Shown here: one piece after another, positions 11 through 16,743 of the stretch
How the letters are laid out: each line of letters opens with the position of its first letter
How positions within the stretch are numbered: the stretch's first letter is position 1
Virus record (IMG/VR): IMGVR_UViG_3300006754_007730
Coordinates: 1 to 30,579 of that record
Direction: 5' to 3' (one strand)
DNA length: 30,579 bases
Origin: a virus
Notes under the pieces: generated by a model
What the model was told of the DNA's origin: nothing
Database searches by the model: none
Seen by the model: only the letters and a program-made list of their open reading frames with translations
Made by a program: the position numbers and the translations under genes

Positions 11-952
11 TCAATTTATGCCCCTAACCTTTGGATAGCTATTCTTAAACCATGCACAGGTTTTTTTTAAGCCAATTCTCAAAGGAGTGTACCATTCTTC
101 TTTCCAGCCAAGATTCAACAACTTTTGGTTGCTGCTTGGTTTCCTGAATTGCCCCGATGGTTTTGCCGTGTTCCACACTATTTTTCCACCATATTCCAAA
201 AGATCACACAATATTTCAACAACTTGTTTAATCGAGTGTTCTTCCGTATTTCCAATATTTACGGGGTGCTCTTCCTCATACTCTTCCAACAAGAATAATA
301 AAATTTTTGCTATATCTTCAGAATAAGTAAATTCTCTCAAAGGAGAACCATCCCCCCAGCACTCTACCGATGGCTTTTCGTTTATTTTTGCCTCCCAGAT
401 TTTACGCATTAAGGCTGGAATGACGTGACTATTTTCTAGATCAAAATTATCATTTTCGCCATAAAGGTTGTTTGGAATTGCTGTGATAAAATTACAGCCA
501 TATTGCTGACGATATGCACGAGACATCACATCAACCATTCTCTTGGCATATGCATATCCAAAATTAGAGTGGTGAGGGGGACCCAAATGAAGTTGATCTT
601 CGGTCAGTGGGTAAGTTATATATTGAGCATCGGGATAAATACAAGTTGATAAAAGTGAAACTACCTTTTTCGATCCTGCCATCTTTGCCGACTCTAAGAG
701 TCGTTGATTCAGTTTGTGATTCTCAAAATAAAAATCACCCACGCTATTCAAATTAGCTTGAAGACCTCCCACCTTTGCTGCAAGATGAATTATGTTCTTA
801 TCCTTTAGGTGAGTTTCTCTCCAAGGAGGGCCCAGTATTAGTCCCAAGTAGGATCGGTCTGGGTAAGATGCGTCTGGCAGGGCTCTTTTCATTGCGTGGC
901 CAACCATCCCTGTTCCGCCCGTGACAATGCATTTATCTGGTAGCTCTTTCAT
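11..952 (-). CDS. fcl: GDP-L-fucose synthase
   Basis: This short-chain dehydrogenase/reductase should convert GDP-4-keto-6-deoxymannose to GDP-L-fucose by 3,5-epimerisation and NADPH reduction in the cytoplasm. The N-terminal Rossmann motif GGTGMVG is at residues 12-18. HLAAKVGGLQAN (56-67) is typical of the family. The catalytic set is Ser102, Tyr133 and Lys137 (YAYAK). NLYGENDNFD and WGDGSPLREF follow and are also family hallmarks. At 313 aa it is about the usual length. It is the last gene of the long minus-strand glycan operon, 3 bases after the sulfotransferase. Its product would feed the GT10 and GT11 fucosyltransferases upstream. The preceding enzyme, GDP-mannose 4,6-dehydratase, is not in the window. 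Seen: motifs. Known: family chemistry. Inferred: role in a phage-directed glycan. Confidence 0.93.
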   Translation of the reverse strand: MKELPDKCIVTGGTGMVGHAMKRALPDASYPDRSYLGLILGPPWRETHLKDKNIIHLAAKVGGLQANLNSVGDFYFENHKLNQRLLESAKMAGSKKVVSLLSTCIYPDAQYITYPLTEDQLHLGPPHHSNFGYAYAKRMVDVMSRAYRQQYGCNFITAIPNNLYGENDNFDLENSHVIPALMRKIWEAKINEKPSVECWGDGSPLREFTYSEDIAKILLFLLEEYEEEHPVNIGNTEEHSIKQVVEILCDLLEYGGKIVWNTAKPSGQFRKPSSNQKLLNLGWKEEWYTPLRIGLKKTCAWFKNSYPKVRGIN

Positions 953-955
953 ACT

Positions 956-1591
956 TTATTCTTCTCTAAATTTGTATCCAAAATATTCAATATCTTTTTT
1001 ATAGTGTTGTGCTACAATCTCTTGCAGTTCATCATTATAATATTCCCAATATGGCTTGTGTTCGGTTCTAAGATAGTGTGGAAGTTGACTACGGGGAATT
1101 CCTATCTTGTCAGATATAAAATCAAAATCTTTTTGCAAATTTTCAAATTGGCCAATAAAATCAAAATAATCGCATGAATTGTTTCTATCTCTAAAGAGAT
1201 CATACATGGGACGCATGTGTGCCACCACTGGTCCGCTGTGTCCAAAGAATGGTTTATGTTTTACAAACATTTCAAATGAAGAAAATTTATCTCTGTTAAT
1301 CCAGTTTTTAGTCAATACATATTTTTTACCCGTTACAAACATATAAGCGGAAAGCAGACGATCCCAGGGGTTTCTTACAAAGGTATATTTCCAAGAATTA
1401 TTAAATATTTCTAAATGACTTCTTTTAAACAGCTCGACGGTACCATTAAGAATCAAGTATAAGTGGCAGTCATCAAATGTAAGAATCTGATGCTTGCCCT
1501 TCTTCTCGTGTTTCTTCGCCTGTTCCGAAAGGCATATTCGCATACTGCTCCAGGCACATTTCGGAGTGCCTACCCATATAATATTTTTCAT
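956..1591 (-). CDS. Carbohydrate sulfotransferase (PAPS-dependent)
   Basis: Predicted to move a sulfuryl group from PAPS to a sugar hydroxyl. The 5'-phosphosulfate-binding loop is TPKCAWSSM at residues 9-17, and the 3'-phosphate-binding motif is FVRNPWDRLLSAY at 71-83 (Arg73, Ser81). Both are characteristic of the Sulfotransfer_2 (Golgi-type carbohydrate sulfotransferase) group. No signal peptide or membrane segment is visible, so it should act in the cytoplasm on a nucleotide sugar or lipid-linked glycan. The start overlaps the upstream methyltransferase stop in a TAATG, which implies translational coupling. At 211 aa it is on the short side for the family but holds both PAPS motifs. The acceptor sugar cannot be read from sequence. 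Confidence 0.85.
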   Translation of the reverse strand: MKNIIWVGTPKCAWSSMRICLSEQAKKHEKKGKHQILTFDDCHLYLILNGTVELFKRSHLEIFNNSWKYTFVRNPWDRLLSAYMFVTGKKYVLTKNWINRDKFSSFEMFVKHKPFFGHSGPVVAHMRPMYDLFRDRNNSCDYFDFIGQFENLQKDFDFISDKIGIPRSQLPHYLRTEHKPYWEYYNDELQEIVAQHYKKDIEYFGYKFREE

Positions 1592-2124
1592 TATTTTATT
1601 GCCTCCAAATTTAAGCTCATAAGTTTGCCACTCTCCTTGTCCAGGTGTGGCAAATATGCTTGGCTATAATCATCAATATGCGAATGTTTGGTTTCGCGCC
1701 AGTCGTAATGTTTGATTTCTTTAAAACCGACACCTTTCAATGCTTTAGACAAGCTTTTAAAATCAAAAATCACTTTATGATAATCATAGATATTTCTTTG
1801 GCCACCGACAACGAGCCCCATAATATCTTCAACATTCTTATTTTCCTGATACCACTGATTGACCGCTTCGAAGTTTGGAACTGATATTCTTATTTTCCCC
1901 CCGGACCTTAGTTTAGAATACCAACACTGAAGGACTTCCTTATACTCATTTCTCCCGAAGTGTTCGAGAACATGACAACCATAAATTAAACTTACAGAAT
2001 CATTATCGATCTTGTCAAGCTTAGAGACATCGTCGATTAGAACCCCTTCCTTATCACTCAAAATATCAATATTTATAAATCCTGGAATTATTTTCTCGCC
2101 GCAGCCTAGATGTAACCTCGTCAT
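1591..2124 (-). CDS. Class I SAM-dependent methyltransferase
   Basis: A compact Rossmann methyltransferase (177 aa). The SAM-binding motif I is LHLGCGEK near the N-terminus, followed by GFINIDIL for the acidic ribose-binding strand. A later CHVLEHF segment and LRSGGKIRISVPN strand are typical of Methyltransf_11/COG4627 proteins common in polysaccharide loci. I chose the second ATG of the open frame because GGAGGG sits 5-6 bases before it, while the first ATG has no such site. The stop overlaps the sulfotransferase start. The role is likely methylation of a sugar or glycan end; the substrate is unknown. Confidence 0.8.
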   Translation of the reverse strand: MTRLHLGCGEKIIPGFINIDILSDKEGVLIDDVSKLDKIDNDSVSLIYGCHVLEHFGRNEYKEVLQCWYSKLRSGGKIRISVPNFEAVNQWYQENKNVEDIMGLVVGGQRNIYDYHKVIFDFKSLSKALKGVGFKEIKHYDWRETKHSHIDDYSQAYLPHLDKESGKLMSLNLEAIK

Positions 2125-2157
2125 GTCGCCCTCCATTGAAATCCTTTTACTCCAAAA

Positions 2158-3243
2158 TTAAAGAAATTCTTTGCCAATTCGTTGATAAAGAAATTCTTTA
2201 TAATCTCCGTCATGGCCATGAAACAAATCAAATTGTTTATAAATAAGCTTGAATGCACTTTCGTTTATCTGATATTCGGAAGCTGGAGTTCTTTCGAAGC
2301 CTCTATTTATTACCCCCTTTCTGTCCATATTGTTATGCAAAAAATACAGCCTACATATCTTTTCTATGCACTTAATATATTCTGTAGATGTTGATTTCGG
2401 CATTTCGGATAAACTGAAGCTATTGTAAAATACATCCACCGCTTGATTGGGAAAATTCGGCAATTCAAAATTCGGCAAGAACAAACAATCATAATCATCT
2501 AGATTTATTTCTGCCACATTGTCATACTCTCCATACAATAATACCTTCTTATCTGGGGCGGCAGACATAATGTAATACGCACCAATCACCAACATTTCTG
2601 GCAGATCAAAATCTATATAAGTAAGGCCCGGTATTTCCTTGAGCATATAATACGCCAAGCCACAATAACCGGCACCAATTTCTGCAAATATCGGATGAGA
2701 AATATCTTTAGTTAAATTCTTTACTTGTTGGCCGTGAGTATGATAACGAGTGGCTTTCGGGACTACCACTTCTCCTTCTATCTCAAGACCCCAATGATTG
2801 CCAACATCGGGTACTCGCAAATCTTTTACATCGAGGTCGAACAGCTCCTTCCATATTAAATAATTTTTTGAAACTCGATTTACAAACCTCTCAACAAACT
2901 CAACTTCATCATTAATGATTTGATCATATTTGGCGTACTCCTTTACAATCGGACTTAGATCATTTCTCCAAAAATTCGACAAAGTTTCATAAATTCTATC
3001 ATAGTTATCTTCAAGCAAATCATTATAGAAAGAATGGCGCTCTGCTATATAATTGTCCCACTCGCCGCCCGCAACATACAATTCGTTTATATTTTTGCTG
3101 TCGGCTTTAAGCCTTTGATACATTTTGCTTATTCGTTTTAATATCTCTATTTTATCCCCACTTGACTCAGCCCTTTCCTTCATCCCGTTTGCCAAGCTCA
3201 AAGAAGGTATATTACTTTTGTCAAATCTTTTTAAAAAATTCAA
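2158..3243 (-). CDS. Putative sugar O-methyltransferase, NanM-type (TIGR04371-like)
   Basis: The C-terminal half carries HPIFAEIGAGYCGLAYYML, then YIDFDLPEMLVIGAYY, LFLPNFE and VDVFYNSFSLSEM. This succession matches the putative sugar O-methyltransferase family found beside nonulosonic-acid genes. The N-terminal ~150 residues are helical and less recognisable. The start is a TTG preceded by GGGGTGAT at good spacing. An in-frame ATG about 20 codons later is the alternative, giving roughly 340 aa. It lies between the truncated HisH-like stub and the small methyltransferase, downstream of the NeuB-set genes, which fits methylation of a nonulosonate or neighbouring sugar. The substrate is inferred from context only. 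Confidence 0.75.
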   Translation of the reverse strand: MNFLKRFDKSNIPSLSLANGMKERAESSGDKIEILKRISKMYQRLKADSKNINELYVAGGEWDNYIAERHSFYNDLLEDNYDRIYETLSNFWRNDLSPIVKEYAKYDQIINDEVEFVERFVNRVSKNYLIWKELFDLDVKDLRVPDVGNHWGLEIEGEVVVPKATRYHTHGQQVKNLTKDISHPIFAEIGAGYCGLAYYMLKEIPGLTYIDFDLPEMLVIGAYYIMSAAPDKKVLLYGEYDNVAEINLDDYDCLFLPNFELPNFPNQAVDVFYNSFSLSEMPKSTSTEYIKCIEKICRLYFLHNNMDRKGVINRGFERTPASEYQINESAFKLIYKQFDLFHGHDGDYKEFLYQRIGKEFL

Positions 3244-3264
3244 TTTATCACCCCGCCCATCGTG

Positions 3265-3345
3265 TCATTTTATTATATCAGCTTGTAGGGTTGTATTAAA
3301 CACAAAAACAAAATTACCGGGACCACAATCAACAATTCCTACCAT
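3265..3345 (-). pseudogene. Truncated HisH-like glutamine amidotransferase 5' remnant
   Basis: A 26-codon open frame starts with ATG at 3345, overlapping the last 17 bases of the PseG-like gene, and ends in TGA. Its first 12 residues, MVGIVDCGPGNF, align with the nearly invariant N-terminus of HisH (glutamine amidotransferase of imidazole-glycerol-phosphate synthase; consensus like I-x-I-V-D-Y-G-x-G-N-L). The frame then drifts and stops, so the glutaminase body with its Cys-His-Glu triad is missing. HisH/HisF paralogues are known in surface-polysaccharide loci, where they supply ammonia for sugar amidination. I read this as the 5' scar of such a gene. It could instead be a short leader peptide that resembles HisH by chance. 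Confidence 0.5.
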
Positions 3346-4351
3346 AGTGGCACCGCCCTTTTATCATTATTTCGTATATTCTATTTGATGCCAAGCCATC
3401 TATGACCCCTTTAGAGTTCAAGTGCATTATAAATAATTCTCTTCTATTCTTATTATAATATTCTATTTTTTCTGTTAGTTCTTCAGAGTCTATATTATTA
3501 ACCTTATCACACAGATTGTTCTCTACCAACTCCTGAATTAAAAACCTTTGAGATGGGTTTTCGACAAAGTTAATTGTGGGTAAACCAGCATATACAGATT
3601 CATATGTTGTAATACCACCGGGCAATATAAGAAGCGAGTTAAGACTTAAAATCTTCCACATTGAAGAATTGGTCTTAGCTAATATTATTTCATGATAAGA
3701 TTTTTTCGTTTCCTCTATTAGTTCGTCATATGAATGTTTATAGCCGTGCCCCAACATGATCCAAACAACATATTTGTTCTTCAACTTGTTAAGCTGTTTA
3801 ATCACTTTTAAGGTTTTGTTGGCTGCGTCTCCACCCCCCATTGATACAGCAATGGACATCCGGTCTTCATTCAAGTATTTTTTGTATGAAGCCGTATCTA
3901 TTTGCTCACAACCTTCTTGGATTAAAGCGTACTCAAGACCCTTATGAACTGTCGTTTTTTTATTGAATAAATAATTGTGGTATTTGGTTCTATGAAAAAT
4001 TGTCTCAACCTTATCCATATGATTAAAGAATGGAGAAAGCGAAACAATACAACTTGACGAGTTCGCCAAATTGAATAATTTATCTCCCACGGATAATAAA
4101 TCAAAAATAACTATACCATCTAAAAAAAGCTTCTCTCTCTGAGAGAACAGCTCTTCTTCCGATTTAAATATCTTATAATTGAAACACACATTAAATAACA
4201 AACCATCTAATGTTTTATTCCCGATTACGTAGTAAAAGACACGATCACTCTCGTGTTTTAATTCCTGAATAGAGCTTGCGAGCGTCTTACTTCTGATTAA
4301 ATGTCCATAACCAATTTCAGTAGACGCCTTTATTATAAAAGAAAAGTTCAT
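3329..4351 (-). CDS. PseG/SpsG-like UDP-sugar hydrolase
   Basis: Resembles the nonulosonate-pathway hydrolase PseG and spore-coat SpsG, GT-B-fold proteins that release a 6-carbon amino sugar from its UDP carrier before condensation with phosphoenolpyruvate. The N-terminus has GYGHLIRSKTLA (residues 14-25), the usual G-x-G-H-x-x-R-x-x-x-L-A signature. The second domain starts with AVSMGGGDAANKTLK and ends with GGITTYESVYAGLPTINF, matching the UDP-binding loop. At 340 aa it is the expected length. It is immediately followed (3 bases upstream on the window) by the NeuB-like synthase, the canonical pathway neighbour. The last residues overlap the HisH-like stub. The exact sugar (pseudaminic, legionaminic or other series) cannot be told. 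Confidence 0.85.
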   Translation of the reverse strand: MNFSFIIKASTEIGYGHLIRSKTLASSIQELKHESDRVFYYVIGNKTLDGLLFNVCFNYKIFKSEEELFSQREKLFLDGIVIFDLLSVGDKLFNLANSSSCIVSLSPFFNHMDKVETIFHRTKYHNYLFNKKTTVHKGLEYALIQEGCEQIDTASYKKYLNEDRMSIAVSMGGGDAANKTLKVIKQLNKLKNKYVVWIMLGHGYKHSYDELIEETKKSYHEIILAKTNSSMWKILSLNSLLILPGGITTYESVYAGLPTINFVENPSQRFLIQELVENNLCDKVNNIDSEELTEKIEYYNKNRRELFIMHLNSKGVIDGLASNRIYEIMIKGRCHYGRNC

Positions 4352-4354
4352 CGT

Positions 4355-5359
4355 TCACTGTAAATATTTCTTGGTAATTCCCGTGTGTTTTTTTACATTT
4401 ACATTTACTTTTTTTCCTATCACAAAATCAATCTCATCGGCATTCATTTCTCCTTCAGGTCGGACCACTAAAATATCTCCGGATTCGATTACATGCCCCC
4501 TGGGCAAATCTTTTGAAGCATATAACGAGCGTCGCGCTCTTTTGCGAGTATATAATTCAGCCTCAGAAAGTTCTTTTTTTTCGTCTCGGAGGGCCTCAAG
4601 CGTCATTGTAATATCTTGAATATATTTAATTAATTCATCTTTTTCCATCGCATAGGCATGATCTAGCCCCGGCTGGGATTTGTCTTCTGTAAAATGTTTT
4701 TCAAACCACGTCGCCCCCATCTGCAGGGCCAAGCAAGCCGCTATACTATCACCCGTGTGGTCAGAAAATCCAACTTCCACCTCAAATTCATTTTTTAAAG
4801 TTTTTATATACTTTAGGTTGGCTTGATCAAGGGTGGCTGGGTACGCTGACACACAATGCAATAACACAAAATTGTCAAAATTAAGCTTCGACAGCTCATT
4901 AACCGTTTTTCTGACATCCTCAATCGTTGACATTCCCGTCGATATAATCATTTTAATATTACGAGTTGCGACCTCTCTTATCAAGCTTGTATGATTTAGG
5001 TCGCAAGAAGCTATTTTTATATATGGTGGATTAAACTCCATCAATAAATCAAGCCCATCAACATCAAACACAGATGCACTAAACGCAATATCAATTTCCC
5101 TACAATGTGCTGCCAATTCAGCATACTCAAAATCTTCCATTTGGCCGCGCTCTCTGATTTTTAAAACTTCCTCGATATCGTAATGGCCATACTCATAGTT
5201 TCCAGGAAGATATAAACCCCATGGATTAATAATTTGAAATTTTACAGAATCAGCGCCAGCCACATTTGCAATTCTTGCTAAATTTTTAGCTTTTTGTAAA
5301 TCCCCATTGTTGTTGGTGCCAGCCTCAGCTATTATATGAATATCTTCCCTTTTTAACAT
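4355..5359 (-). CDS. neuB: Nonulosonic acid synthase, NeuB/PseI/LegI family
   Basis: Should condense phosphoenolpyruvate with an N-acetylated hexose (ManNAc or a di-acetamido-trideoxyhexose) to form a nine-carbon sialic-acid-like sugar. Seen: IIAEAGTNNNGD at the N-terminus, ADSVKFQ, IKIASCDL, IISTGMSTIEDV, LHCVSAYPA, VGFSDHTGD and WFEKHFTED, which together form the NeuB TIM barrel. A C-terminal SAF (antifreeze-like) domain follows with ARRSLYASKDLPRGHVI. The length of 334 aa is typical. The ATG overlaps the end of the pyruvyltransferase gene by 7 bases. PseG-like and SpsF-like genes flank it within 2 kb, completing hydrolysis, synthesis and activation. Confidence 0.92.
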   Translation of the reverse strand: MLKREDIHIIAEAGTNNNGDLQKAKNLARIANVAGADSVKFQIINPWGLYLPGNYEYGHYDIEEVLKIRERGQMEDFEYAELAAHCREIDIAFSASVFDVDGLDLLMEFNPPYIKIASCDLNHTSLIREVATRNIKMIISTGMSTIEDVRKTVNELSKLNFDNFVLLHCVSAYPATLDQANLKYIKTLKNEFEVEVGFSDHTGDSIAACLALQMGATWFEKHFTEDKSQPGLDHAYAMEKDELIKYIQDITMTLEALRDEKKELSEAELYTRKRARRSLYASKDLPRGHVIESGDILVVRPEGEMNADEIDFVIGKKVNVNVKKHTGITKKYLQ

Positions 5360-6423
5360 TTTGAATCTATCACCAATCTTGCAAATTTTTCTGAGTTGTA
5401 TGTCATTGTATTTCTTAAATCAGCCCACGTAGATTTACAAAGTTCCTGCTTTATCTCCTTCAGCTCTCCTAGCCTATTGATTCTATCCTCGACCGCTGGC
5501 AATAATTCTTGTTTAAGCAAATCAATATTCCACTCATCCATTCCCAGGGTATCCACCATACTTATGGCCCTTTGATCATAACTAATTTTAATGGCCGGGA
5601 CATCATAAGAGATGCAAGGAATAAATGAATGTAAGCGAAAAGACACACTCAACCTAGTGCTTCTCAAATATGTTAAGTACGCGTACACATCCTCCGTATA
5701 CAGGTAATCCATCTCCGCAAACGAAGCTGCAAACGGTATATCTCTATGATCGTGACATAAAAATTTTACATTCGCATATCCCTTTTTTTTCAACAGCTCA
5801 ATCATATCAACTAGTTGGTTTCTTAGCTCATATTGATAATTCACCGGTATACTCATAAGAGAGGGAGTTCGAATAGAAATTAAAGCATCGGTCTTATTTG
5901 CTTCCGTTATTGGTACCAAGTGCTGGAGAATTTCATTAATAAACAAGGTAGGGCAGCCGCCCAGTATGTTGTTACAGCCTATAGAATCTATATATTCTTT
6001 TGTTGCCTTGTCTCTTGACAGGGAGATATCGGCTCTATTGTTTATCAAAGCAATCTTTTCACTTGGCATTACGTCAGTCCTGTCTACAAAGTCAAGTTTT
6101 TGATTATAAATCTTCCCCCTCGACACGCTAAAAATCATCATAGGTTTTTCTAACGCCGATAAAGCCGTAGAATCAACTTCTAGCTCACCATTTTCGTAAA
6201 GATTGCCGCCGCCTACAATAACGCCATCTCCAAATTGGTTAATTTCATAAACGGTCTGAGCACTTAGCCCCGATTTTCTTTGATTCTCATACTTGCCCGT
6301 TGCTGGGAGTGAAATAACATTAATATTTTGTCCGAAGGCCCTCTTTATAAAATGATTTAGACCAAGGTGAATTACGTCATTACCAATATTGAATCCCTTT
6401 GGCCGTATGCAAAAAATATTCAT
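5353..6423 (-). CDS. Polysaccharide pyruvyltransferase family protein
   Basis: Matches the WcaK/CsaB-like pyruvyltransferase fold (GT-B), which attaches a pyruvate ketal from phosphoenolpyruvate to a sugar. Supporting segments are GFNIGNDVIHLGL near the N-terminus, DGVIVGGGNLYENGE, and the C-terminal SVSFRLHSFIPCISYDVPAIKISYD containing the family's R-x-H-S signature. The chosen ATG at 6423 lies in an ATGA overlap with the preceding gene and has GGAGAG upstream. A GTG five codons earlier is possible but lacks that site. It sits between the CMP-sugar gene and neuB, so phosphoenolpyruvate-dependent steps cluster here. Ketal formation would add negative charge to the glycan. The acceptor is unknown. 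Confidence 0.8.
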   Translation of the reverse strand: MNIFCIRPKGFNIGNDVIHLGLNHFIKRAFGQNINVISLPATGKYENQRKSGLSAQTVYEINQFGDGVIVGGGNLYENGELEVDSTALSALEKPMMIFSVSRGKIYNQKLDFVDRTDVMPSEKIALINNRADISLSRDKATKEYIDSIGCNNILGGCPTLFINEILQHLVPITEANKTDALISIRTPSLMSIPVNYQYELRNQLVDMIELLKKKGYANVKFLCHDHRDIPFAASFAEMDYLYTEDVYAYLTYLRSTRLSVSFRLHSFIPCISYDVPAIKISYDQRAISMVDTLGMDEWNIDLLKQELLPAVEDRINRLGELKEIKQELCKSTWADLRNTMTYNSEKFARLVIDSKC

Positions 6424-7082
6424 ACAAAATCTCTCCACGTTTTTGATGTATCGTTGTCTAGCAGCTTATTGAGTTTTTCTAGATCCAGGGGGAAGTCAAC
6501 AGTGAACCCCAAATCTTTGTTGAATTCTATTTCGCTCTTTATATTTAACAAATTAAATTTATCACTGTTTTGATACAAATAGCTTGTAACATGCTCTCTC
6601 TGAATTTCATTCATTTTTGAATAAGCAGTTTTAAAACTAGATGTTTTGATAATCTCCATCGATATTCCATATGGGTAACTTCTTTCATGAATGTTTGTAA
6701 TTAAATCGTAATCAGTGTTCTGACATATTTGCAGTCCTCTAGAAATAAGTTGCAGATCAATCATTGGTGAATCAGCATTTAGCCTAACAAAGTAATCTGC
6801 ATTATATTTTAATGCGCAGTTCAGTACTCTACCAGCAACATCAAGTAAGTCGCCTCGAAAACACTCTACGTTATTTCTATCCGCAATATCATTAATTCTA
6901 TCATCTGGTGAATTTATACTTGTGGCAACAATCACTGGCCACGGGTGGAGTGCTTTTTCCGCCCTGTTTATTACGAATTGCAATAGCGGTATCCCGCACA
7001 ACAATTGTTCCATTTTTCCCGGAAACCGCGTAGAGTTCATACGACCAACGACTATGCCAACTATTTTTCTGTTAGACTCCAC
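6420..7082 (-). CDS. CMP-sugar cytidylyltransferase, SpsF/NeuA-like
   Basis: A nucleotidyltransferase of the SpsF / CMP-Kdo synthetase superfamily, expected to activate a nonulosonic acid with CTP. The nucleotide-binding P-loop-like segment is GRMNSTRFPGKM (residues 13-24), with the R-x-x-S-T-R-x-P-G-K pattern. FVRLNADSPMID carries the metal-binding aspartate region, and REHVTSYLY and FTVDFPLDL are typical of SpsF proteins. At 220 aa it is the normal size. The start overlaps the upstream stop by one base and the end overlaps the pyruvyltransferase in ATGA. Its position with NeuB and PseG-like genes supports CMP activation of the nine-carbon sugar, as PseF does, although SpsF substrates vary. 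Confidence 0.84.
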   Translation of the reverse strand: MESNRKIVGIVVGRMNSTRFPGKMEQLLCGIPLLQFVINRAEKALHPWPVIVATSINSPDDRINDIADRNNVECFRGDLLDVAGRVLNCALKYNADYFVRLNADSPMIDLQLISRGLQICQNTDYDLITNIHERSYPYGISMEIIKTSSFKTAYSKMNEIQREHVTSYLYQNSDKFNLLNIKSEIEFNKDLGFTVDFPLDLEKLNKLLDNDTSKTWRDFV

Positions 7083-7933: not shown

Positions 7934-8634
7934 TCGTACCCTCCAAGTCTTTTTAATTCTTCTAGCACTATGGGCACCAAAGATTCAGATAACAAATGAA
8001 TTGTATCATACCAATAGTTTTTTTCATGCATGGTACTCGTGATCTTCTCAAAGGTTTCTATATGACGAAACCCCTTCGCCATAGATTGCTCTTTTAAAAT
8101 TTTATTAAACTTTCCAGTTATTTCCAGCCCACGTGAAGGGGCCTCACACGAAGGAACAAAACAAGTGCCTTCGTAGCCTCCATCAGTGCCACAAGAAATG
8201 TCCATCGTAAATAAATTCTTATATCCGAGTCTTTTTATTTCCTCATAAACAAGCAAATATCGCTCAACAACACTCTCAATAATTCTATTTACAGATACAT
8301 TTTGTTTTTCTGCTTGTTTCTTGATGTGGGCGCGGCAATCAATTTCTCCATAAGATAAACAAACATTAGAATCCAAAGAAACATTTTTTAGCTTTGGCAA
8401 TAAACTTGTTTGGGCTTTATCACATAGGGTATGTGCCAAACCGGCGTCTACGCGCCAACAATACAATTCATAGTCTTTGTGCTTATGCCACCGAGTCTGA
8501 GGGTGACCATACCTAACATCAAACCAGTTATACCTTCGATTTGGATTAACTGTCCCATCAGGTAAAAAGTGTTGTCCATCATTCCCTGATATTCCCAGTG
8601 CATGACTGTCGCCTATAAAATAAAACTTTTTCAT
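7930..8634 (-). CDS. SGNH-hydrolase-like protein
   Basis: Has the block layout of SGNH/GDSL enzymes. FIGDSHAL near the start supplies the nucleophile Ser in a GDSH block. LSYGEIDCRAH occupies the block III position. YDTIHL near the C-terminus gives the D-x-x-H catalytic pair. Such proteins in glycan loci add or remove acyl groups, often O-acetyl. I see no transmembrane acyltransferase domain and no signal peptide, so it would act in the cytoplasm or be a stand-alone esterase or transferase. The ATG directly abuts the GT10 stop. The substrate is not readable. Confidence 0.65.
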   Translation of the reverse strand: MKKFYFIGDSHALGISGNDGQHFLPDGTVNPNRRYNWFDVRYGHPQTRWHKHKDYELYCWRVDAGLAHTLCDKAQTSLLPKLKNVSLDSNVCLSYGEIDCRAHIKKQAEKQNVSVNRIIESVVERYLLVYEEIKRLGYKNLFTMDISCGTDGGYEGTCFVPSCEAPSRGLEITGKFNKILKEQSMAKGFRHIETFEKITSTMHEKNYWYDTIHLLSESLVPIVLEELKRLGGYE

Positions 8635-9519: not shown

Positions 9520-10235
9520 GAACCTCGATTATAGGAGGTAGTCAAATCTCGCAGGTGGCGTAAAATCTTTACTCTATCATAGAGATCTTTATTATTATGA
9601 ATGTAATAATCATGAGATGAATATTTTAATTTCTCAATAATATATTTTATATTTTTAGGGATAATATTAAGAAAACAAGATAGATTTCCACGATCAAGTG
9701 CACTATCTCCTATCATCAAATAAATGGCAGACTGAATATCGCGGTGCATCCTCTGATATATCTCGTCTATTTCTACCAACGGGTCCTGGCGGGCCAGAGA
9801 ATTATACAAAGAGTTGTGAATTGGGTGTGGTTTCCCGTGCTTCATACACTCACCAGTACTTATCTGAGGATTAACTGCGATTGCGTTCGCACCTAATAAT
9901 ATAGCATGATATATCGACCCGTAGGCGCCCATCGATGACCCAAAAAAAGTAACATTGGGGGCGCCGAACTTAGAGACGTAAGGCTGCAGTAACTCTTGGT
10001 ATTCTTTTCCTTGATCCTTCTCTAGATACCAATTATTTTTGTTGTTAATAAACAATAAATTAGACTCAGGATTTTTGCTTAAAGTATTAAGCTTAAAAAA
10101 CTGATGACCTTTATCTCGTATGATACCATTTTTATCGTGCAGTCCGTGTGGAGCAAAAGAAACCAACAAAACTTGAGACTCTTCTTTGGGAATAAAAATA
10201 TAATCTTTGTTTTTATAGACTTTCGTGAAATTCAT
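9516..10235 (-). CDS. Alpha/beta-hydrolase-fold protein
   Basis: The nucleophile elbow is VTFFGSSMGAYGSIYHAILLGANAIAVNPQ (split here only for context), with a G-x-S-M-G pattern. VLLVSFAPHG early in the chain fits the strand leading to the oxyanion region. A late SSHDYYIHNN could hold the catalytic His. Proteins of this type occur in surface-polysaccharide and accessory Sec (Asp2-like) loci as acyltransferases or esterases. I chose ATG at 10235, which overlaps the FkbM stop as ATGA, over an ATG 11 codons upstream that would run deep into the preceding gene. No signal peptide. Substrate unknown. Confidence 0.6.
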   Translation of the reverse strand: MNFTKVYKNKDYIFIPKEESQVLLVSFAPHGLHDKNGIIRDKGHQFFKLNTLSKNPESNLLFINNKNNWYLEKDQGKEYQELLQPYVSKFGAPNVTFFGSSMGAYGSIYHAILLGANAIAVNPQISTGECMKHGKPHPIHNSLYNSLARQDPLVEIDEIYQRMHRDIQSAIYLMIGDSALDRGNLSCFLNIIPKNIKYIIEKLKYSSHDYYIHNNKDLYDRVKILRHLRDLTTSYNRGS

Positions 10236-10834
10236 TCCTGGCGCCCCTTCAAGTACCAATTTTCCCACACAAAAGCATAATCATAAGTAATCGAATGAGT
10301 TTCCTTTAAATTTTGGCGAATTTTATGTCTCTTTACCAAGGCATCCTCAACAAAAGAATGAAATTGCACTTGGATATTTTTCATTTTAGAGGTTAACTCA
10401 CTTTCTATGCAATGAGATAGGAGAGGGAATTCCCCTCCCTCAATATTAATTTTAATAAGATCTATATTGTCTATGGACAACTCTTGCATAACTTTTCCAA
10501 TCTCTCGTAGTTGAATAACTTCCATTTTTTGTGCGCGCTTATAAATACTCGATGCATCACCATCGACACTAATTTCCTGATCCTGGTCTCTTTCTGCAAG
10601 ACCATAATCACAAACCACAATATTCGGATTGTTCGCAAACCGGCTTACAATTGATTCATAAAATTTTTCCACAGGTTCAAAAACATAAACCTTGCAGCCA
10701 TATCTTTGATTTATTTGAGCAGCAAAATCGCCACGGTAACCACCAACATCAAAAACAACGCTATCTTTATTTAAATTATAATTTAATCGGTGAACTAAGT
10801 CTCCCTTGTCTGCAAACCATCTTTGAAATTCCAT
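10232..10834 (-). CDS. FkbM-family methyltransferase
   Basis: A SAM-dependent methyltransferase of the FkbM type, which O-methylates sugars and related hydroxyls. VVFDVGGYRGDFAAQI is motif I (D-x-G-x-x-x-G), VYVFEPVEKFYESI gives the acidic SAM-ribose position (FEP), and IDLIKINIEGGEFPLL is the conserved I-K-I-D/N-x-E-G-x-E strand. At 200 aa it is slightly short. I chose the ATG in the TAATG overlap with the upstream fucosyltransferase stop; GGGAG lies before it. An earlier in-frame start would overlap the neighbour by 24 bases with no better site. It is one of three methyltransferases in the operon. Confidence 0.82.
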   Translation of the reverse strand: MEFQRWFADKGDLVHRLNYNLNKDSVVFDVGGYRGDFAAQINQRYGCKVYVFEPVEKFYESIVSRFANNPNIVVCDYGLAERDQDQEISVDGDASSIYKRAQKMEVIQLREIGKVMQELSIDNIDLIKINIEGGEFPLLSHCIESELTSKMKNIQVQFHSFVEDALVKRHKIRQNLKETHSITYDYAFVWENWYLKGRQE

Positions 10835-11616
10835 TATATTATCTCCCACCCTGCACAATAAAGGTCTTTGGTGTTATATGCCACACTGGGGCCAAACCAC
10901 CGCTGTGGAGCAACCACCACCTTGTCTGTGTTGGCATTTAACCACGCGGCCCACCAAGAAAAACTACTATTAGCTATAATATTGTGCTTACACATTGACA
11001 TAAGATACAAATCAATATAATCGGCTTCATTCTCAACCACATGAGCCAATGATCCAAATTCGTTTTTGCACCACTCGGCATCATCACTAAACACCACTAT
11101 ATCATACTGATCAGCATCTTTAAACATGCTTAATGCTTTTTGATAATAGTGGGGAGAGCACGTTGGATGTATGTTTGGGTGATTTGTGTAATCCCCCCTT
11201 CGAACATGTATTCCTATTGTTTCTCCTTCTAGAATATGAGAATATTGTTCATCAATATACTGTTTTATTTCTTCGGTTGGCTCGAACAGGGCTTTAATGT
11301 CATCGGCCCTGTGAACAAAATATTTTTCTGATTGGAAATATCCCAACAAACACATATTTTTTTTGTAAGGGAGCTTCCCGTAATAAAAATTTGGTTCTCG
11401 GTATGTACATTCAATTTGTAAATCACGAGAAAACTCTACTTTTGAAAAAATGTTGGATAAGTACTTGCCACACTTTCTATCAAGAAATTGAGGGGGAAGG
11501 TAATGTGTAGTGGTATCAAAAATTGGTTTGTCGTCGTGGTCTTTAGCCAGAGCCACCACAGTGGCAATCTGAAACATCATGTTCCCCAGGCCGCCCATCA
11601 ATTGTATTGTAATCAT
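10834..11616 (-). CDS. GT11-family alpha-1,2-fucosyltransferase
   Basis: Carries all GT11 landmarks: QLMGGLGNMMFQIA (residues 5-18), IGIHVRRGDY with the H-x-R-R-G-D GDP-fucose motif, and ANSSFSWWAAWLN near the C-terminus. These define bacterial alpha-1,2-fucosyltransferases such as FutC and WbwK. The 260-aa length is usual. The ATG follows a 25-base gap from the RmlB-like gene, with GGAAAAAG upstream. With the GT10 gene 1.3 kb downstream in the transcript and fcl at the operon end, the cluster has a fucose donor and two linkage types. The acceptor and linkage are inferred from family only. Confidence 0.9.
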   Translation of the reverse strand: MITIQLMGGLGNMMFQIATVVALAKDHDDKPIFDTTTHYLPPQFLDRKCGKYLSNIFSKVEFSRDLQIECTYREPNFYYGKLPYKKNMCLLGYFQSEKYFVHRADDIKALFEPTEEIKQYIDEQYSHILEGETIGIHVRRGDYTNHPNIHPTCSPHYYQKALSMFKDADQYDIVVFSDDAEWCKNEFGSLAHVVENEADYIDLYLMSMCKHNIIANSSFSWWAAWLNANTDKVVVAPQRWFGPSVAYNTKDLYCAGWEII

Positions 11617-11641: not shown

Positions 11642-12631
11642 TTATCTCCATTCTGGATTATTTAAAAACCACTCTACTGTTTCTTTGAGTCCGTCGTTTA
11701 GACTAGTTTTCGGGGCCCACCCCATCTTTTTCATCTTCTTCCCACACAGGGAGTATCTAAAATCATGTCGTGGGCGCGTCTTTTTTGGATCCACTAGTTT
11801 ATACTTTAGTGGCTTTCCAACTATTTCAGCTACCGATTTTGCCAAATCTAAATTATCACTCTCCTGATCGTAGACAATATTATATTTTTCCCCTACGGTG
11901 TGGTTAACCATCAAAAACATTACAGCCCTGCAAACATCTCTTGAATGCAGATAACAACGCCTGCTGGCTTTCGTTAGCTCGGGATTGGAGTGGATCTGGA
12001 CCGTCTCCCCATTCAAAATCTTCTTGATTATTAGAGGAATAAACTTTTCAGGATGTTGTCGAGGTCCGTATACGTTCATCGTGTGAGTTATGATGATTGG
12101 CATCATATACGTGTTTTCATACGCCACACACAACTCCTCTGCACCAGCTTTTGTTGCGGCGTAGGGATTTCCAGCACGAAACCTGGAATCTTCGTCAAAA
12201 ACAACTCCTTCGGGGGCAGCTCCAAAGACCTCATCTGTGCTAAAATATAAAAACAACTTTAAATCTTTGCAGTGTAGCCTCGCATATTCCAAAAGGTTGC
12301 AAGTGCCAACAATGTTGTCCATAACGAATTCCATCGGATACAACACGCTTCTATCAACATGGGAACCGGCAGCGAGGTGGAGGATATAATCAACTTTTCC
12401 CAATTTATCAATTGTGTAATCATTCGGGAATGCCTTCAGGTCATGCCACACAACAGTCAAGCGATTTTTCCATTCCGGATTTTGAGAGACCACATCCGCA
12501 AGACGGTTTAAGTTCCCAGATACGTCTAATCTATCCAACGACACAACTTCAAAATTAGTGTTTTCCAAAAAATATTCTATTAACGCATGGCCAACAAAGC
12601 CCGCGCCGCCAGTGATTAATACTCGCTGCAT
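11642..12631 (-). CDS. dTDP-glucose 4,6-dehydratase-like (RmlB-type) SDR
   Basis: An extended SDR enzyme. LITGGAGFVGHAL is the NAD-binding loop at the N-terminus. HLAAGSHVDRS, FSTDEVFGAAPEG (the catalytic T-D-E of RmlB), NPYAATKAGAEELC (Y-x-x-x-K) and NVYGPRQHPEKFIP follow in the RmlB order. It should form a 4-keto-6-deoxy sugar nucleotide, most likely dTDP-linked. The length of 329 aa is normal. The ATG at 12631 has GGAGG seven bases upstream; a TTG two codons earlier is less likely. The TDE motif argues against a PseB role, but related UDP-sugar dehydratases cannot be fully excluded. RmlA, C and D are not in the window. Confidence 0.8.
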   Translation of the reverse strand: MQRVLITGGAGFVGHALIEYFLENTNFEVVSLDRLDVSGNLNRLADVVSQNPEWKNRLTVVWHDLKAFPNDYTIDKLGKVDYILHLAAGSHVDRSVLYPMEFVMDNIVGTCNLLEYARLHCKDLKLFLYFSTDEVFGAAPEGVVFDEDSRFRAGNPYAATKAGAEELCVAYENTYMMPIIITHTMNVYGPRQHPEKFIPLIIKKILNGETVQIHSNPELTKASRRCYLHSRDVCRAVMFLMVNHTVGEKYNIVYDQESDNLDLAKSVAEIVGKPLKYKLVDPKKTRPRHDFRYSLCGKKMKKMGWAPKTSLNDGLKETVEWFLNNPEWR

Positions 12632-12644
12632 TACCAATCCTCCT

Positions 12645-13385
12645 TTAAATCTCTTCTAACAAATTATATTTTTTCATATGGCGGATTCTCATTTCAGAAT
12701 CTAATAATTTTCGATGATCAACCTTGTCCTCATTCAGTGGATTGGCCCTGTTATAAATGTGTAAAATCTCTTTTATATAAAAACTTCTGGTCCCAGCCAT
12801 CTCTAGCATCGGAAACATAAAAGCCAAATCCCAGGCTCCGTCACAAAAGCGACCATCTTCTTCTTGAAGATCTTCCTTTTTGATTTTTGACCAAAGCTTA
12901 TATTTAAACGTTCTCAGATGAGAGGAACACCAAGGCGCTTGTCGAAATGCCTTATTGGCAATGATTTGATCTGAAATCTGCTTTGCAAATTTTCCGCGCT
13001 GGCCGCTGGGGTATTCAGCGTAACTACCGTATGTTATCAAACAGTTGGTCTCCTCATAAACTTGTTTAAGCTTGGATAACACTTGCTTATTCGCAAGCCA
13101 ATCATCACCATCGAGAGTTACGATAATATCTTCAGGAGCAGGGTTTGAAAGCTCTATTCCATCATAAATGTTTTTCAGAGCAAGGGCTTTTTCTTTATTT
13201 TCTACGAAAACGAATCTCTCATCCCCTTCAATCTCTTTTTTGATAATCTTAGCACTATTATCTGTGGAAAGGTCATCTAGAACGATACATTGGAAATTTT
13301 CATAATCTTGTACCTTCACACTTCTCAGGCAAGCAGTTATCCACGCTTCGGCGTTGTAAAGGGGGGTGATGATTTTAAAATGCAT
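12645..13385 (-). CDS. GT2-family glycosyltransferase
   Basis: An inverting GT-A glycosyltransferase. The start IITPLYNAEAWITACLRSV and VLDDLSTDNS bind the nucleotide. IIVTLDGDDWLANKQVL supplies the metal-binding D-x-D. WDLAFMFPMLEMAG covers the acceptor/base region. There are no membrane helices, so it should work on the cytoplasmic side. The ATG overlaps the end of the preceding GT gene by 11 bases. The sugar transferred cannot be told from sequence. Confidence 0.85.
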   Translation of the reverse strand: MHFKIITPLYNAEAWITACLRSVKVQDYENFQCIVLDDLSTDNSAKIIKKEIEGDERFVFVENKEKALALKNIYDGIELSNPAPEDIIVTLDGDDWLANKQVLSKLKQVYEETNCLITYGSYAEYPSGQRGKFAKQISDQIIANKAFRQAPWCSSHLRTFKYKLWSKIKKEDLQEEDGRFCDGAWDLAFMFPMLEMAGTRSFYIKEILHIYNRANPLNEDKVDHRKLLDSEMRIRHMKKYNLLEEI

Positions 13386-14211
13386 TTTCTATTACCGTGG
13401 GAATTGTATCTCTTTGATCCACAAAATATTGAATTAATTCTTTCCCCTTCTTTTTAAACCAGGGCTCTTTTGTTGCTCCGATTAGATTATTAGACATAAC
13501 AGCCATTCCCATCATCCTGGCTTCAACCACCACCCTGGAGAGGGTTTCGGGCGTGAGAGGAAAAAACACTAAATTTTTATTTCTAGATAAATTTTCTAAA
13601 AACTTTTGGGGTGGGGCTGGATCTATCAGATCATATTTCATATTCTTCTTTTTGCAAAATCTAATCGCCCCGAAAGTATTTTTATGAGAAATATTAGAGT
13701 TCATTATTGAACTGCAATCTCGTTTTTCTCTCGTCGATAGTTGTTCTAAAAGTTGAAGAGAATCGGGCGACCACAAGTTTCCACTTAAATTTACAATATT
13801 TTCTGTTTTCAAGTTATTTGAAACAATATCAGCATGAAATTTTGTTTGACAAACAACAGCAGATGCTTCTTTATAAAATTCAAAATTTATTATATCTTCT
13901 TGGGGAGCGATATAGTCTTTATATGCTGCGGGGTTTCTCCCTCTTAAATATTTGTGATCATGCTCATATACAATATACGGAACCCCACTCTCAATAATTT
14001 GGTTACGAAGATTGGGCTTCAAGTTAATAAAATTAGATATAATGATATGTTCTGAATTAAGAATATCTTTAGTCTGTACAAGATGACTTTGCCGTGGAAC
14101 CACATCCCACAAGCGTGAAATTAGCAAGTCTATGAGTTCTTTATTATTTAATTCTGCGCCACCAGTTATCTGATCAGCAAAAAAGTCATCAATGAAAAGA
14201 AGCCTACTCAT
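13375..14211 (-). CDS. Glycosyltransferase, GT4-like (short)
   Basis: GT-B-type transferase of modest length (278 aa). The N-terminus LLFIDDFFADQITGGAELNN has the G-G-A-E acceptor loop common to GT4. YIVYEHDHKYLRGRNP and AVVCQTKFHADIVSNN sit at the domain linker. FFPLTPETLSRVVVEARMMGMAVMSNN matches the donor-binding E-x7-E segment, here with altered spacing (ETLSRVVVEA). It appears to lack the longer donor domain of its neighbours, so it may be a reduced form. It overlaps both neighbours (8 and 11 bases). Confidence 0.68.
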   Translation of the reverse strand: MSRLLFIDDFFADQITGGAELNNKELIDLLISRLWDVVPRQSHLVQTKDILNSEHIIISNFINLKPNLRNQIIESGVPYIVYEHDHKYLRGRNPAAYKDYIAPQEDIINFEFYKEASAVVCQTKFHADIVSNNLKTENIVNLSGNLWSPDSLQLLEQLSTREKRDCSSIMNSNISHKNTFGAIRFCKKKNMKYDLIDPAPPQKFLENLSRNKNLVFFPLTPETLSRVVVEARMMGMAVMSNNLIGATKEPWFKKKGKELIQYFVDQRDTIPTVIENAF

Positions 14212-15484
14212 GAACTTCTACATTTAATTCGTTGAGCCAGCCTTGTACATTAAAATCTTCTTCTGGGGCGTACTCCTCTAGGTGCCCCACAAATTGTCCC
14301 CACATTTTTCCTTCGGTGAATTTACTACGTATATATTCTTGCAAATCCTTCGCTCGATTTTCATAAATTCTATATTTTTTATGAACATCGCGCAGCTTCA
14401 TTTTGAAACTTCCCTGGTCAGCATAGGCCCACTGAGAATCCTCCTGTAAAAAACCGGCCCAGACAGCATTTTTTTGGATAACATTCACAGTGAACTCGAC
14501 TTCAGCGAATTTAGCCACCATCTGCTTCTTTCTTTTGCCTTTTATTTTTTCTGGGGCGTATAGAAAATCAGCTTGGCCGCCCCACGGATGCGTAACAATA
14601 GGCTTCCCGTATCCAGCCATCTCAAACATCGGCAAACCAAACCCTTCTCCGTGAGCAATATTTATTAATGCTTTAATTTTTGGATGTTGATACAGCGCAG
14701 ACATCTCATCATCTTTCAGATACCCGTGCAAGAGATGAACTGCACATTTTCTTTCAGAATATTTTGCGTCTGCTAATAAATTTTTAATACTATTTCTTGT
14801 GGTGTTCGCATCAATATAAGAATTGCTTGCTGAGCTGACCTTTAACAGCAGACCAACCTCTTGATCGTAGAACTCTTCTATAAACCAACGGATTGTATTC
14901 TCGACATTCTTTCGAGGACTAATTTGGGCTACAACAAGAAAATTAAAATCATATTTTAAATCAAAATCAATATTTGAAGGAATGTACGGTCTAAACGGAT
15001 AATTTACAACTTCAACCGGACCTTTAGCACCCATGTCCCTAACTTCGCCTGTTTCGGGGTTTGTGGCTTTATAGACAGTATTCACAAAAGCATGTTTTGA
15101 AAAATTCGAAACAACAATGATTTTATCTACAAGATAAGATTTTTGAACCCACTCTGGAGATATTTTTGTTGTTTCAATTCCGGCTGTGCAGCCAATATTA
15201 ATTGGAGCCAACTTTTCCCATTCATTCGGGATGGTGACTTGTAAAGAAATGTCAAACGTTCCCTTCTGCTGGCGATGGTGAACAGTCTTTAACAAAACAG
15301 AATCAATCCATTGTCGTTCTTCTGTATCTTCCCACAACCAACTTGTCTGGCCCCAGCTCAAATTTTCAAGATAAATATCAAATAAGTCTTCTCGACTTTT
15401 TAGTGCTCGCAATACAAATCTTGCATGTTCCCCATACCCGCTTTGACTTAAGGCAGGGCCCCTTATTAGTGCTTTTAATCTCAT
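14204..15484 (-). CDS. GT4-family glycosyltransferase
   Basis: A GT-B retaining glycosyltransferase. GPALSQSGYGEHARFVLRAL is the acceptor-domain loop. VVAQISPRKNVENTIRWF opens the donor domain. NIAHGEGFGLPMFEMAGYGKP is the E-G-F-G-x-x-x-x-E nucleotide-sugar site. The start is the ATG in an ATGA overlap with the preceding gene, with GGAAGAG upstream; an ATG six codons earlier lacks context. At 426 aa it is a full-length GT4. Paired with the next GT4 upstream, it likely adds successive residues of the same glycan. Confidence 0.85.
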   Translation of the reverse strand: MRLKALIRGPALSQSGYGEHARFVLRALKSREDLFDIYLENLSWGQTSWLWEDTEERQWIDSVLLKTVHHRQQKGTFDISLQVTIPNEWEKLAPINIGCTAGIETTKISPEWVQKSYLVDKIIVVSNFSKHAFVNTVYKATNPETGEVRDMGAKGPVEVVNYPFRPYIPSNIDFDLKYDFNFLVVAQISPRKNVENTIRWFIEEFYDQEVGLLLKVSSASNSYIDANTTRNSIKNLLADAKYSERKCAVHLLHGYLKDDEMSALYQHPKIKALINIAHGEGFGLPMFEMAGYGKPIVTHPWGGQADFLYAPEKIKGKRKKQMVAKFAEVEFTVNVIQKNAVWAGFLQEDSQWAYADQGSFKMKLRDVHKKYRIYENRAKDLQEYIRSKFTEGKMWGQFVGHLEEYAPEEDFNVQGWLNELNVEVHE

Positions 15485-16743
15485 AGCTCTTCCAATCTCC
15501 ATGATTTATAATTCTTTCGAGAATCCCAAGACCCATATTTTTCATATACATCTGTTAAAACCCTATCCCATTCGGTTTGGTAGCGTTCGAAACTATAATT
15601 TTTTATAACATGTTCTCTACCTTGCGTTCCCATCTCGTGTCGCTCTTTTTCGGAGAGATTATAAAACTTTTCCAGAGTATCAACGAACTCATCGCCATTA
15701 ATCCTATCTTCATAAATCCAGGGAATATCTTGTGATCCAATTATTGCACGAGAAGAAGGGCTAATACCAAACCCAAACCAATTTTCTCCATCAGTCGCCT
15801 GCTCTTGAAGGCCCCCTGTCATGTTAACAATGATGGGTATTTCACAAGCAAGAGATTCAAGAGTCGCGAGCCCGAAGCCTTCTGCATCAGATATATTAAT
15901 TGTGCAATCAGACATATTATACAATAAAGATAATCCTTCGGCTGAGATTTTATCTTTTGAAAACATCACTTGCCCCTGGTTTAGCCCAAGTTCATTAACT
16001 ATGGCCTCCAAATCTTGTCCATGCATATCCTTTGGGTCGGTGTGCATAAGCAAAGCTGCCTTGTCGTGTCCAATTCGATCTAAAAAGTCCTTAAACCAAA
16101 AAATCAAAGTTCCCGATTGTTTGCGCCTCGCGTTTCGATTGTTCCAGAAAAATATCATCTTTTCTGAGTTGTTGAACTTTTTTAAATTTTCATTCTTGAA
16201 TTCGGCAATTGTTTCAGAATCTACTTTCTTAAAAATTTCTGTGTTGACTGCGTGAGGAAGGTGAATCACTTCAGCCTCTTTCGCAACAATGTTTACAATC
16301 TCGTCGGTAAGCTTAGAAATAGTTACTATTACATCCGTTGAATCGTATGCCAAGCGATTAAATTTCGGAGGAGGATAATTATCCCAGACATGATAATAAA
16401 CCATGGGAACCAACGGACGAATCTCGTCCTCCATTTTCCAAAGCCATCCAAAAAATCGTGGATCAGTCATAAACCACAATATATCAGGTTTCTCATTTCT
16501 TAAAACCGAACGGACAATCTCTGCATTTCCATACCCATCAATTGGAAAAATTGTCCAGTCATCACCCCACTCTTCGGTTTTCATCGGCTGATAGTTCTGG
16601 TGTTTGACCGCCCCTCCGAGAGATACAACTTGGAACCGGCCTGTCTTTAACAGGCCCTCAATCATATATTTTGTTTGAGTTCCGACGCCGGAAGGAGAGA
16701 GCGGATGGTCTGAAATCGTGAGGATCTTAATTTTTTTACTCAT
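15481..16743 (-). CDS. GT4-family glycosyltransferase (first gene of glycan run)
   Basis: Full-length GT-B transferase (420 aa). ISDHPLSPSGVGTQTKYMIEGL is the N-terminal acceptor loop. FFWNNRNARRKQSGTLIFWF begins the donor domain. NISDAEGFGLATLESLACEIP holds the E-G-F-G-x-x-x-x-E motif. The ATG has AGGTGAT immediately upstream. It begins 7 bases after the nuclease gene with no terminator between, so the glycan genes probably read through from the early-type genes rather than from a promoter of their own, unless one lies inside the nuclease gene. Confidence 0.85.
   Translation of the reverse strand: MSKKIKILTISDHPLSPSGVGTQTKYMIEGLLKTGRFQVVSLGGAVKHQNYQPMKTEEWGDDWTIFPIDGYGNAEIVRSVLRNEKPDILWFMTDPRFFGWLWKMEDEIRPLVPMVYYHVWDNYPPPKFNRLAYDSTDVIVTISKLTDEIVNIVAKEAEVIHLPHAVNTEIFKKVDSETIAEFKNENLKKFNNSEKMIFFWNNRNARRKQSGTLIFWFKDFLDRIGHDKAALLMHTDPKDMHGQDLEAIVNELGLNQGQVMFSKDKISAEGLSLLYNMSDCTINISDAEGFGLATLESLACEIPIIVNMTGGLQEQATDGENWFGFGISPSSRAIIGSQDIPWIYEDRINGDEFVDTLEKFYNLSEKERHEMGTQGREHVIKNYSFERYQTEWDRVLTDVYEKYGSWDSRKNYKSWRLEEL

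Follow-up and report, generated by a model that had tools for sequence, protein, structure and literature searches.

A hypervariable sugar-gene island behind a constant glycosyltransferase core in a clade of mostly uncultured T4-like phages

A Hypervariable Glycosylation Island at a Fixed Locus

The IMG/VR virus record IMGVR_UViG_3300006754_007730, a 30,579-bp sequence that is called the window here, carries a long minus-strand operon of sugar genes next to phage genes. Comparison of gene content and gene order with related loci identifies the window as one allele of a hypervariable phage glycosylation island within a large T4-like phage clade whose members are mostly uncultured. The plan of the island as read from these loci is an exonuclease gene, the glycosyltransferase genes GT4a, GT4b and orf278 (with or without a GT2 gene), a variable set of sugar genes, and p65, an FmdB-like gene, gp55 and gp33. 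A role for the island in phage-encoded cytoplasmic glycosylation, with a constant core and variable outer sugars added to a virion protein, is given an even chance. The first-pass annotation of the window, made from its letters, described a single glycan operon and missed the island; since the window is one allele among many across the clade, the interest lies in the system, and the particular glycan encoded here is incidental.

The GT4a gene was used as the anchor of a scan that returned 80 loci, two of which are the window's own sequence. Both GT4a and GT4b are present in all 80 loci, and the upstream order of exonuclease, m227, PhoH and d129 is constant wherever the contigs reach. In the window this right flank consists of a PD-(D/E)XK exonuclease (16751..17533, PF12705 E 2e-19, found in 78 loci of the scan) and the m227, d129, d110 and PhoH-PIN genes (17542..20268, PF02562 E 2.5e-50, conserved in synteny); these and all further window coordinates refer to the minus strand unless stated otherwise. 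At the other end, gp55 is present in 50 out of 50 records searched and lies downstream of GT4a on the same strand at a distance of 4.8–27.6 kb (median 15.4 kb, 49 measured; 17.2 kb for the window).

The genes between these ends were read in 45 islands, which contain 962 open reading frames (ORFs) in 324 gene families. Only five families (GT4b, a protein of 104–115 aa, the FmdB-like protein, p65 and the broad SDR superfamily) occur in at least 30 of the 45 islands, and 223 out of 324 are confined to one island. The Jaccard index of the variable genes has a median of 0.037 between islands and exceeds 0.5 in just 3 out of 990 pairs. The close relative L181 shares 84–86% nucleotide identity with the window in the flank on the gp55 side and 79% in gmd-fcl, and has no nucleotide similarity to it further into the island. 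Recurrent modules in other islands include UDP-glucose dehydrogenase, a DegT aminotransferase, a CMP-transferase, UDP-GlcNAc 2-epimerase, APS kinase and a heptose-type kinase/cytidylyltransferase pair. On this evidence, the two GT4 genes behind the phage nuclease are a conserved unit, and the variable part consists of the genes to their left.

The same order of nuclease, GT4a and GT4b followed by unrelated sugar genes is found in two sequenced isolates, the Flavobacterium phage immuto (Immutovirus) and the Microcystis phage Mel-JY01, whose hosts belong to different phyla. The isolates differ from the window in that their GT4a and GT4b are only about 30% identical and their island contents are different. 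No function for the cassette of either phage was reported in the literature found.

The almost complete turnover of gene content is a point in favor of neutral cargo, that is, stuffer DNA for headful packaging, which was also raised as a possibility for cyanophage lipopolysaccharide (LPS) clusters (PMC3037559). Such cargo is a poor match for ORFs that are intact and tightly packed, for pathways that come as linked modules (GMD-Fcl in the window, HldE-kinase-HAD-cupin in common with the cyanophage P-SSM2) and for transferases that are retained clade-wide, GT4a at 58–73% identity (in 78 further loci) and GT4b at roughly 40–67%. Neutral cargo is accordingly rated as very unlikely.

Linkage of the Island to a T4-Like Phage Genome

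Positions 11–16743 of the window contain 19 ORFs, all on the minus strand, with 16 out of 18 junctions within 25 bp, overlaps at 11 of them and outliers of −37 and +85 bp, in agreement with the tight run of about 19 genes described in the first-pass annotation. The operon continues past the left edge of the window into a 20th gene, encoding a GDP-mannose 4,6-dehydratase (GMD), whose 4-bp overlap with fcl is seen on contig G002, a match to the window at 99.97%; the first bases of this gene are in the window (1..14) and the remainder is at G002:18922–19914 (TIGR01472 gmd, 450 bits, above the cut-off of 415). Beyond it, the left extension carries p65, an FmdB-like zinc ribbon, gp55 (late sigma factor), a gp33-like gene, gp25 and gp6 of the baseplate, and a gene for a 2648-aa protein; a single molecule carries both the island and gp55, gp25 and gp6. 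T4-type gp23 was found in 15 out of 19 longer relatives, both isolates among them. From this gene content, the source of the window is a T4-like phage in which the glycan half and the phage half belong together, and the earlier description of the operon as phage-borne holds. A megablast search of the window against sequenced phages returned zero DNA similarity. Shine–Dalgarno sequences are used by 11 of 34 genes.

By itself the window is a 30.6-kb fragment with two dissimilar halves, which is what an assembly artefact that fused a glycan locus of bacterial origin with a phage contig would look like. The junction is also present on two further IMG/VR contigs, of which IMGVR_UViG_3300025096_003536 spans the whole window at 99.98% identity and IMGVR_UViG_3300010151_007942 matches positions 1–17024 at 99.97% and continues 19.9 kb leftward (two assemblies that may not be independent of the window's own sample), and the same junction was found again in diverged loci and in the sequenced isolates. 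The probability of such an artefact is put at practically nil. A misjoined and a chromosomal contig, the two ways in which the first-pass annotation had allowed that it could be mistaken, were both examined: no sign of misassembly was seen, the contig is not chromosomal, and the recurrence of the junction in other contigs and diverged loci rules out either origin.

The Constant Transferase Core

GT4a (15481..16743, PF00534 E 3e-12) is the constant first gene of the island and its closest PDB match is 3oy2, the glycosyltransferase B736L of chlorovirus NY2A. GT4b (14204..15502) is present in 45 out of 45 islands examined. The third gene, orf278 (13375..14211), gave no family match in hidden Markov model (HMM) searches. 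Its AlphaFold (AF2) model has a pLDDT of 95.1 and matches the GT4-type GT-B enzymes BshA, GtfC and HepE in Foldseek (E 1e-6 to 1e-5), which identifies the product by predicted fold as a GT-B transferase and, together with its homologues, as a cryptic third core enzyme. Homologues of orf278 were found in 58 other loci, 22 of them free-standing, 22 with a length of 523–561 aa and 14 with a length of 695–705 aa. Judged by position and length, the 523–561-aa forms are apparently fused to GT2 and the 695–705-aa forms to GT4b, as would be expected of enzymes that catalyze sequential steps. The GT2 transferase itself (12645..13385, PF00535 E 2e-20) is a semi-conserved member of the core. Overall, the comparison of loci gives a core with two near-constant transferases, a common third one (orf278) and often GT2 next to it.

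Sugars Predicted from the Variable Genes

Enzymes were called by HMM searches against Pfam and NCBIfam with equivalog cut-offs, and the matches support the enzyme families that the first-pass annotation had named. The fucose branch is complete as predicted from these calls. The Fcl-like GDP-L-fucose synthase (11..952) matches PF01370, with NF047922 as the best family (232 bits, below the cut-off of 500), and the GMD gene that overlaps fcl completes the GDP-fucose route from GDP-mannose. Two predicted transferases for this sugar are present, a GT10 alpha-1,3-fucosyltransferase (8635..9519, PF00852 E 7e-11, PDB 2nzw E 4e-17) and a GT11 fucosyltransferase (10834..11616, HxRRGDY motif, PF01531 E 4.5e-33, phrog_2644). 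The fucose part of the glycan proposed at first is thus supported by GMD, Fcl, GT10 and GT11.

The proposed nonulosonate fared less well. A PseG/SpsG-like nucleotide-sugar hydrolase (3329..4351, GxGHxxR motif with His17; TIGR03590 78.8 bits, below the cut-off of 153.6; no match against PDB), a NeuB/PseI-like nonulosonate synthase with a SAF domain (4355..5359, PF03102 E 4e-65; NCBIfam scores of 257.9 and 234.4 bits, both under cut-off) and an SpsF-like cytidylyltransferase of the CTP_transf_3 family (6420..7082, PF02348 E 2e-21, PDB 6oew E 4e-24) would provide the last three steps of a pseudaminic or legionaminic acid pathway. The aminotransferase and the N-acetyltransferase of that pathway were not found among the genes of the window. 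The top PDB match of the NeuB/PseI-like protein is the pseudaminic acid synthase 8h2c (E 8e-43), followed by 1vli (SpsE); since all three enzymes score below their equivalog cut-offs, the type of sugar is not named by homology. A nonulosonate remains plausible as the product. A candidate transferase for it is an MptE-like (DUF115) protein (7082..7933) with a match to PF01973 below cut-off (E 1.6e-4), whose AlphaFold model, made without an alignment, had a pLDDT of 34.5 and was discarded.

Several further genes encode putative decorating enzymes. These are a carbohydrate sulfotransferase (956..1591, called as Sulfotransfer_2, PF03567 E 5e-15), a polysaccharide pyruvyltransferase (PS_pyruv_trans, 5353..6438, PF04230 E 4e-17), a putative sugar O-methyltransferase of the NanM type (2158..3243, TIGR04371 77 bits, above the cut-off of 44), an FkbM methyltransferase (10232..10858, PF05050 E 3e-9) and an S-adenosylmethionine methyltransferase-like protein (1591..2136) that has similar proteins in five islands and was recognized, without a Pfam match, by an LHLGCG motif only. 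Two other genes were likewise called from a motif only and lack a Pfam match, an SGNH-like candidate esterase or acetyltransferase (7930..8634, GDSHA) and a putative alpha/beta-hydrolase-like protein (9516..10268, GSSMGAYG). The remaining gene encodes an RmlB-like SDR similar to dTDP-glucose 4,6-dehydratase (11642..12637, TIGR01181 265 bits, cut-off 365). Taken together, the predicted enzymes suggest that the outer glycan of this allele would bear fucose, probably a nonulosonate completed from a host precursor, and sulfate, pyruvate and methyl groups.

Export Machinery and the Likely Acceptor

A scan for transmembrane segments revealed no polytopic exporter among the 962 ORFs of the 45 islands: 15 ORFs have two or more predicted segments (three at most) and these are mostly small or antisense. 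The controls, Wzx and Wzy of Escherichia coli, scored nine and six segments. The cassettes of immuto and Mel-JY01 have no predicted membrane segments, and the one APS kinase that carries a DUF2061 membrane segment is not an exporter. HMM searches of relatives and isolates, with positive controls, found Wzx (PF01943), WbaP (PF02397) and GtrA (PF04138) in 0 out of 22 each and Wzy_C (PF04932) in 0 out of 13. The flippase, polymerase and initiating transferase of a Wzx/Wzy-type O-antigen or capsule locus were thus not found in these genomes, nor was the membrane flippase GtrA of a serotype-converting gtrABC module, and the GT2 is only weakly GtrB-like (phrog_841, E 1e-8). With no exporter found, the product has no recognized phage-encoded way out of the cytoplasm.

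The first-pass annotation had left open whether the glycan decorates the host or the virion. The main competing explanation is remodelling of the host surface, in which host LPS, O-antigen or capsule precursors would be changed in the cytoplasm and exported by the host, with infected cells masked from competing phages or progeny kept off debris. Surface glycans typically contain sugars such as heptose, nonulosonate and fucose, the weak GtrB-like match of GT2 fits such a role, the clusters of cyanophages received the name of LPS genes (PMC3037559), and modification of the O-chain is the reading given to pelagimyophage glycosyltransferases by their authors (PMC7029224). The lack of matches to GtrA, Wzx, Wzy_C and WbaP in relatives argues against it, as does a GT4a/GT4b pair that is common to phages of Flavobacterium and Microcystis and is a poor fit to a host-specific acceptor. 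Furthermore, constant transferases with variable sugars are the opposite of what adaptation to one host glycan predicts. Host-surface remodelling is considered unlikely on balance, with an appreciable chance nonetheless.

A glycan on modified bases of the phage DNA, protecting against restriction like the glucosylated hydroxymethylcytosine of T4 with a longer chain, is another candidate. T4-like phages do glycosylate DNA, the alpha-glucosyltransferase of T4 is among the GT-B matches of orf278 in Foldseek, and the isolate immuto is annotated with DpdA and QueF (7-deazaguanine in DNA). Diverse glycans on the DNA of phages, together with glycosyltransferases, are also on record (Pyle et al. 2024, as cited in PMC12619734). 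Against this, the family of thymidylate synthase and dCMP/dUMP-hydroxymethylase (PF00303) was found in 0 out of 17 long marine island relatives with positive controls, and is carried by immuto. Tet_JBP (PF12851) was found in 0 out of 22, a weak result given that its control was silent. No base hydroxymethylase was thus seen in these relatives, and the window's own genome is incomplete. Sulfate, pyruvate and nonulosonate are not known to occur in outer sugars on DNA. DNA hypermodification is regarded as improbable.

Constant transferases combined with interchangeable sugars, and kept in phages of both Flavobacterium and Microcystis, suggest a fixed acceptor that is owned by the phage. Since neither an exporter nor, in the 17 long marine island relatives, a base hydroxymethylase was found, a virion protein would be the likeliest acceptor. 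The comparative evidence thus favors the virion as the target without proving it. In the proposed mechanism, GT4a, GT4b, orf278 and GT2 would act in the cytoplasm of the host and assemble a short core on an acceptor that stays the same, and the variable genes would supply and attach the outer sugars. For the allele in the window, GDP-fucose would be made by GMD and Fcl and used by GT10 and GT11, the PseG-, NeuB- and SpsF-like enzymes would finish a CMP-nonulosonate whose precursor comes from the host, and the glycan would be decorated with sulfate, pyruvate and methyl groups. The acceptor, in the least certain step, would be a tail, baseplate or capsid protein, giving the phage a self-made, diversifying glycan coat. 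The wider proposal, that serotype-like and rapidly exchanged virion glycan coats with a protein-linked GT4a/GT4b/orf278 core and interchangeable outer sugars are widespread in this T4-like clade, is advanced tentatively, at somewhat below even odds.

Several observations weigh against a virion acceptor. The analysis identified neither an acceptor protein nor a site of glycosylation: a Ser/Thr-rich acceptor was not seen in the neighboring structural proteins, and the 2648-aa one is not rich in these residues. Glycosyltransferase folds do not separate protein from lipid or DNA acceptors, as illustrated by the fold match of orf278 to the T4 enzyme, and even without a flippase the sugars or transferases may still feed the host's own lipid-linked pathway. 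A search for the T4 late promoter motif TATAAATA gave no more matches than expected by chance and was uninformative, and no virion proteome or glycan data were found.

Relation to Known Systems

Sugar gene clusters are already known from T4-like cyanophages, and pelagimyophages are known to have a hypervariable island that contains glycosyltransferases. LPS gene clusters are described for P-SSM2, S-SSM7 and S-SM2 in the accessible part of PMC3037559, which does not describe a variable island with fixed ends. Like the island, these clusters belong to T4-like marine phages, encode cytoplasmic sugar enzymes and lie near phoH, and the window shares with the marine clusters a T4-like carrier and a run of nucleotide-sugar enzymes and glycosyltransferases. 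The best island matches to the HldE-kinase-HAD-cupin heptose module of P-SSM2 have 45–66% protein identity, with similar genes in 10–16 islands. P-SSM2 differs in having no GT4a or GT4b homologue at the threshold used, and its sugar genes, upstream of phoH, are flanked by tail fibre genes rather than by the exonuclease and gp55. The pelagimyophage host recognition cluster (PMC7029224) is likewise hypervariable, has GT8 as its main transferase family, and sits together with the tail fibres between VrlC and gp14 in the structural part of the genome; it shares glycosyltransferases and a T4-like marine carrier with the island.

For the proposed mechanism, the closest working analogue is the capsid glycosylation of chloroviruses such as PBCV-1, in which the virus makes GDP-fucose by a pathway of its own and multidomain transferases and a conserved core glycan are part of a system that does without organelles (PMC4691112, PMC7826918). 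The island resembles it in a viral nucleotide-sugar pathway (GMD, Fcl) and a constant core predicted to be built by transferases, some of them apparently multidomain, without organelles or exporters, and the chlorovirus enzyme B736L is the best PDB match of GT4a. The chloroviruses differ in being eukaryotic viruses with an unrelated virion and N-glycans proved by experiment; the phage system is predicted from its genes. A precedent from different phages is that of mycobacteriophages, which encode the glycosylation of their own capsid and tail-tube proteins (Freeman et al. 2023, cited in PMC12619734). What appears to be new, as judged from open-access literature, is the locus, its constant core and, over about 50 genomes, the absence of export; an earlier description is possible.

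Marine T4-like sugar clusters have long been known without a settled target, and host LPS, DNA glucosylation and stuffer DNA were raised as options. The design of a constant core and a variable tip without export machinery leads to a direct prediction of virion glycoproteins, for which two cultured relatives are available as a test. If the prediction is true, phage particles vary their glycan coat as bacteria vary their O-antigen, which would bear on adsorption, host range and recognition. The island would then be the counterpart in prokaryotes of the capsid glycosylation of chloroviruses, with diversifying selection acting on it for the choice of receptor or for escape from binding.

Other Genes of the Window and Its Neighborhood

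The only plus-strand gene of the window (20365..21285) encodes a trypsin-like protease with a lipoprotein-like signal, and its relatives occupy the same position in 46 loci of the GT4a scan. An adenylosuccinate synthetase (27872..28858) scores 288 bits with PurA and 139 bits with PurZ and retains the Asp of the QYGDCGKG motif, so that synthesis of 2-aminoadenine DNA is not indicated by score. A tmRNA (22989..23267) is full length by Rfam RF00023 (89.8 bits) and carries the tag DEDYFEYAMAA; the tmRNAs of the relatives L105, L139 and L150 have the other tags ANDNVEFDYAMAA, ANDDIEIFEDFALAA and ANNNNHFEQRLAA.

To the right of the window, a tubulin/FtsZ-like GTPase gene (G001:31747–32898, L089:11747–12898) contains the motif GGGGGTGSS and matches PF00091 just below cut-off (28 bits); it is also present in the relative G003. 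Several proteins encoded at G001:33121–44210 share an ENW(R/N)K(F/Y)(L/I/V)NE-like N-terminus, possibly a tag for targeting to the virion or for packaging. Relatives of the glutamine synthetase gene of the window (21500..22594) were found in at least 80 IMG/VR loci; it adjoins GT4a in L165 and L179, and in G003 it is adjoined by a cysteine-synthase-like gene dependent on pyridoxal phosphate (G003:11164–12024, PF00291).

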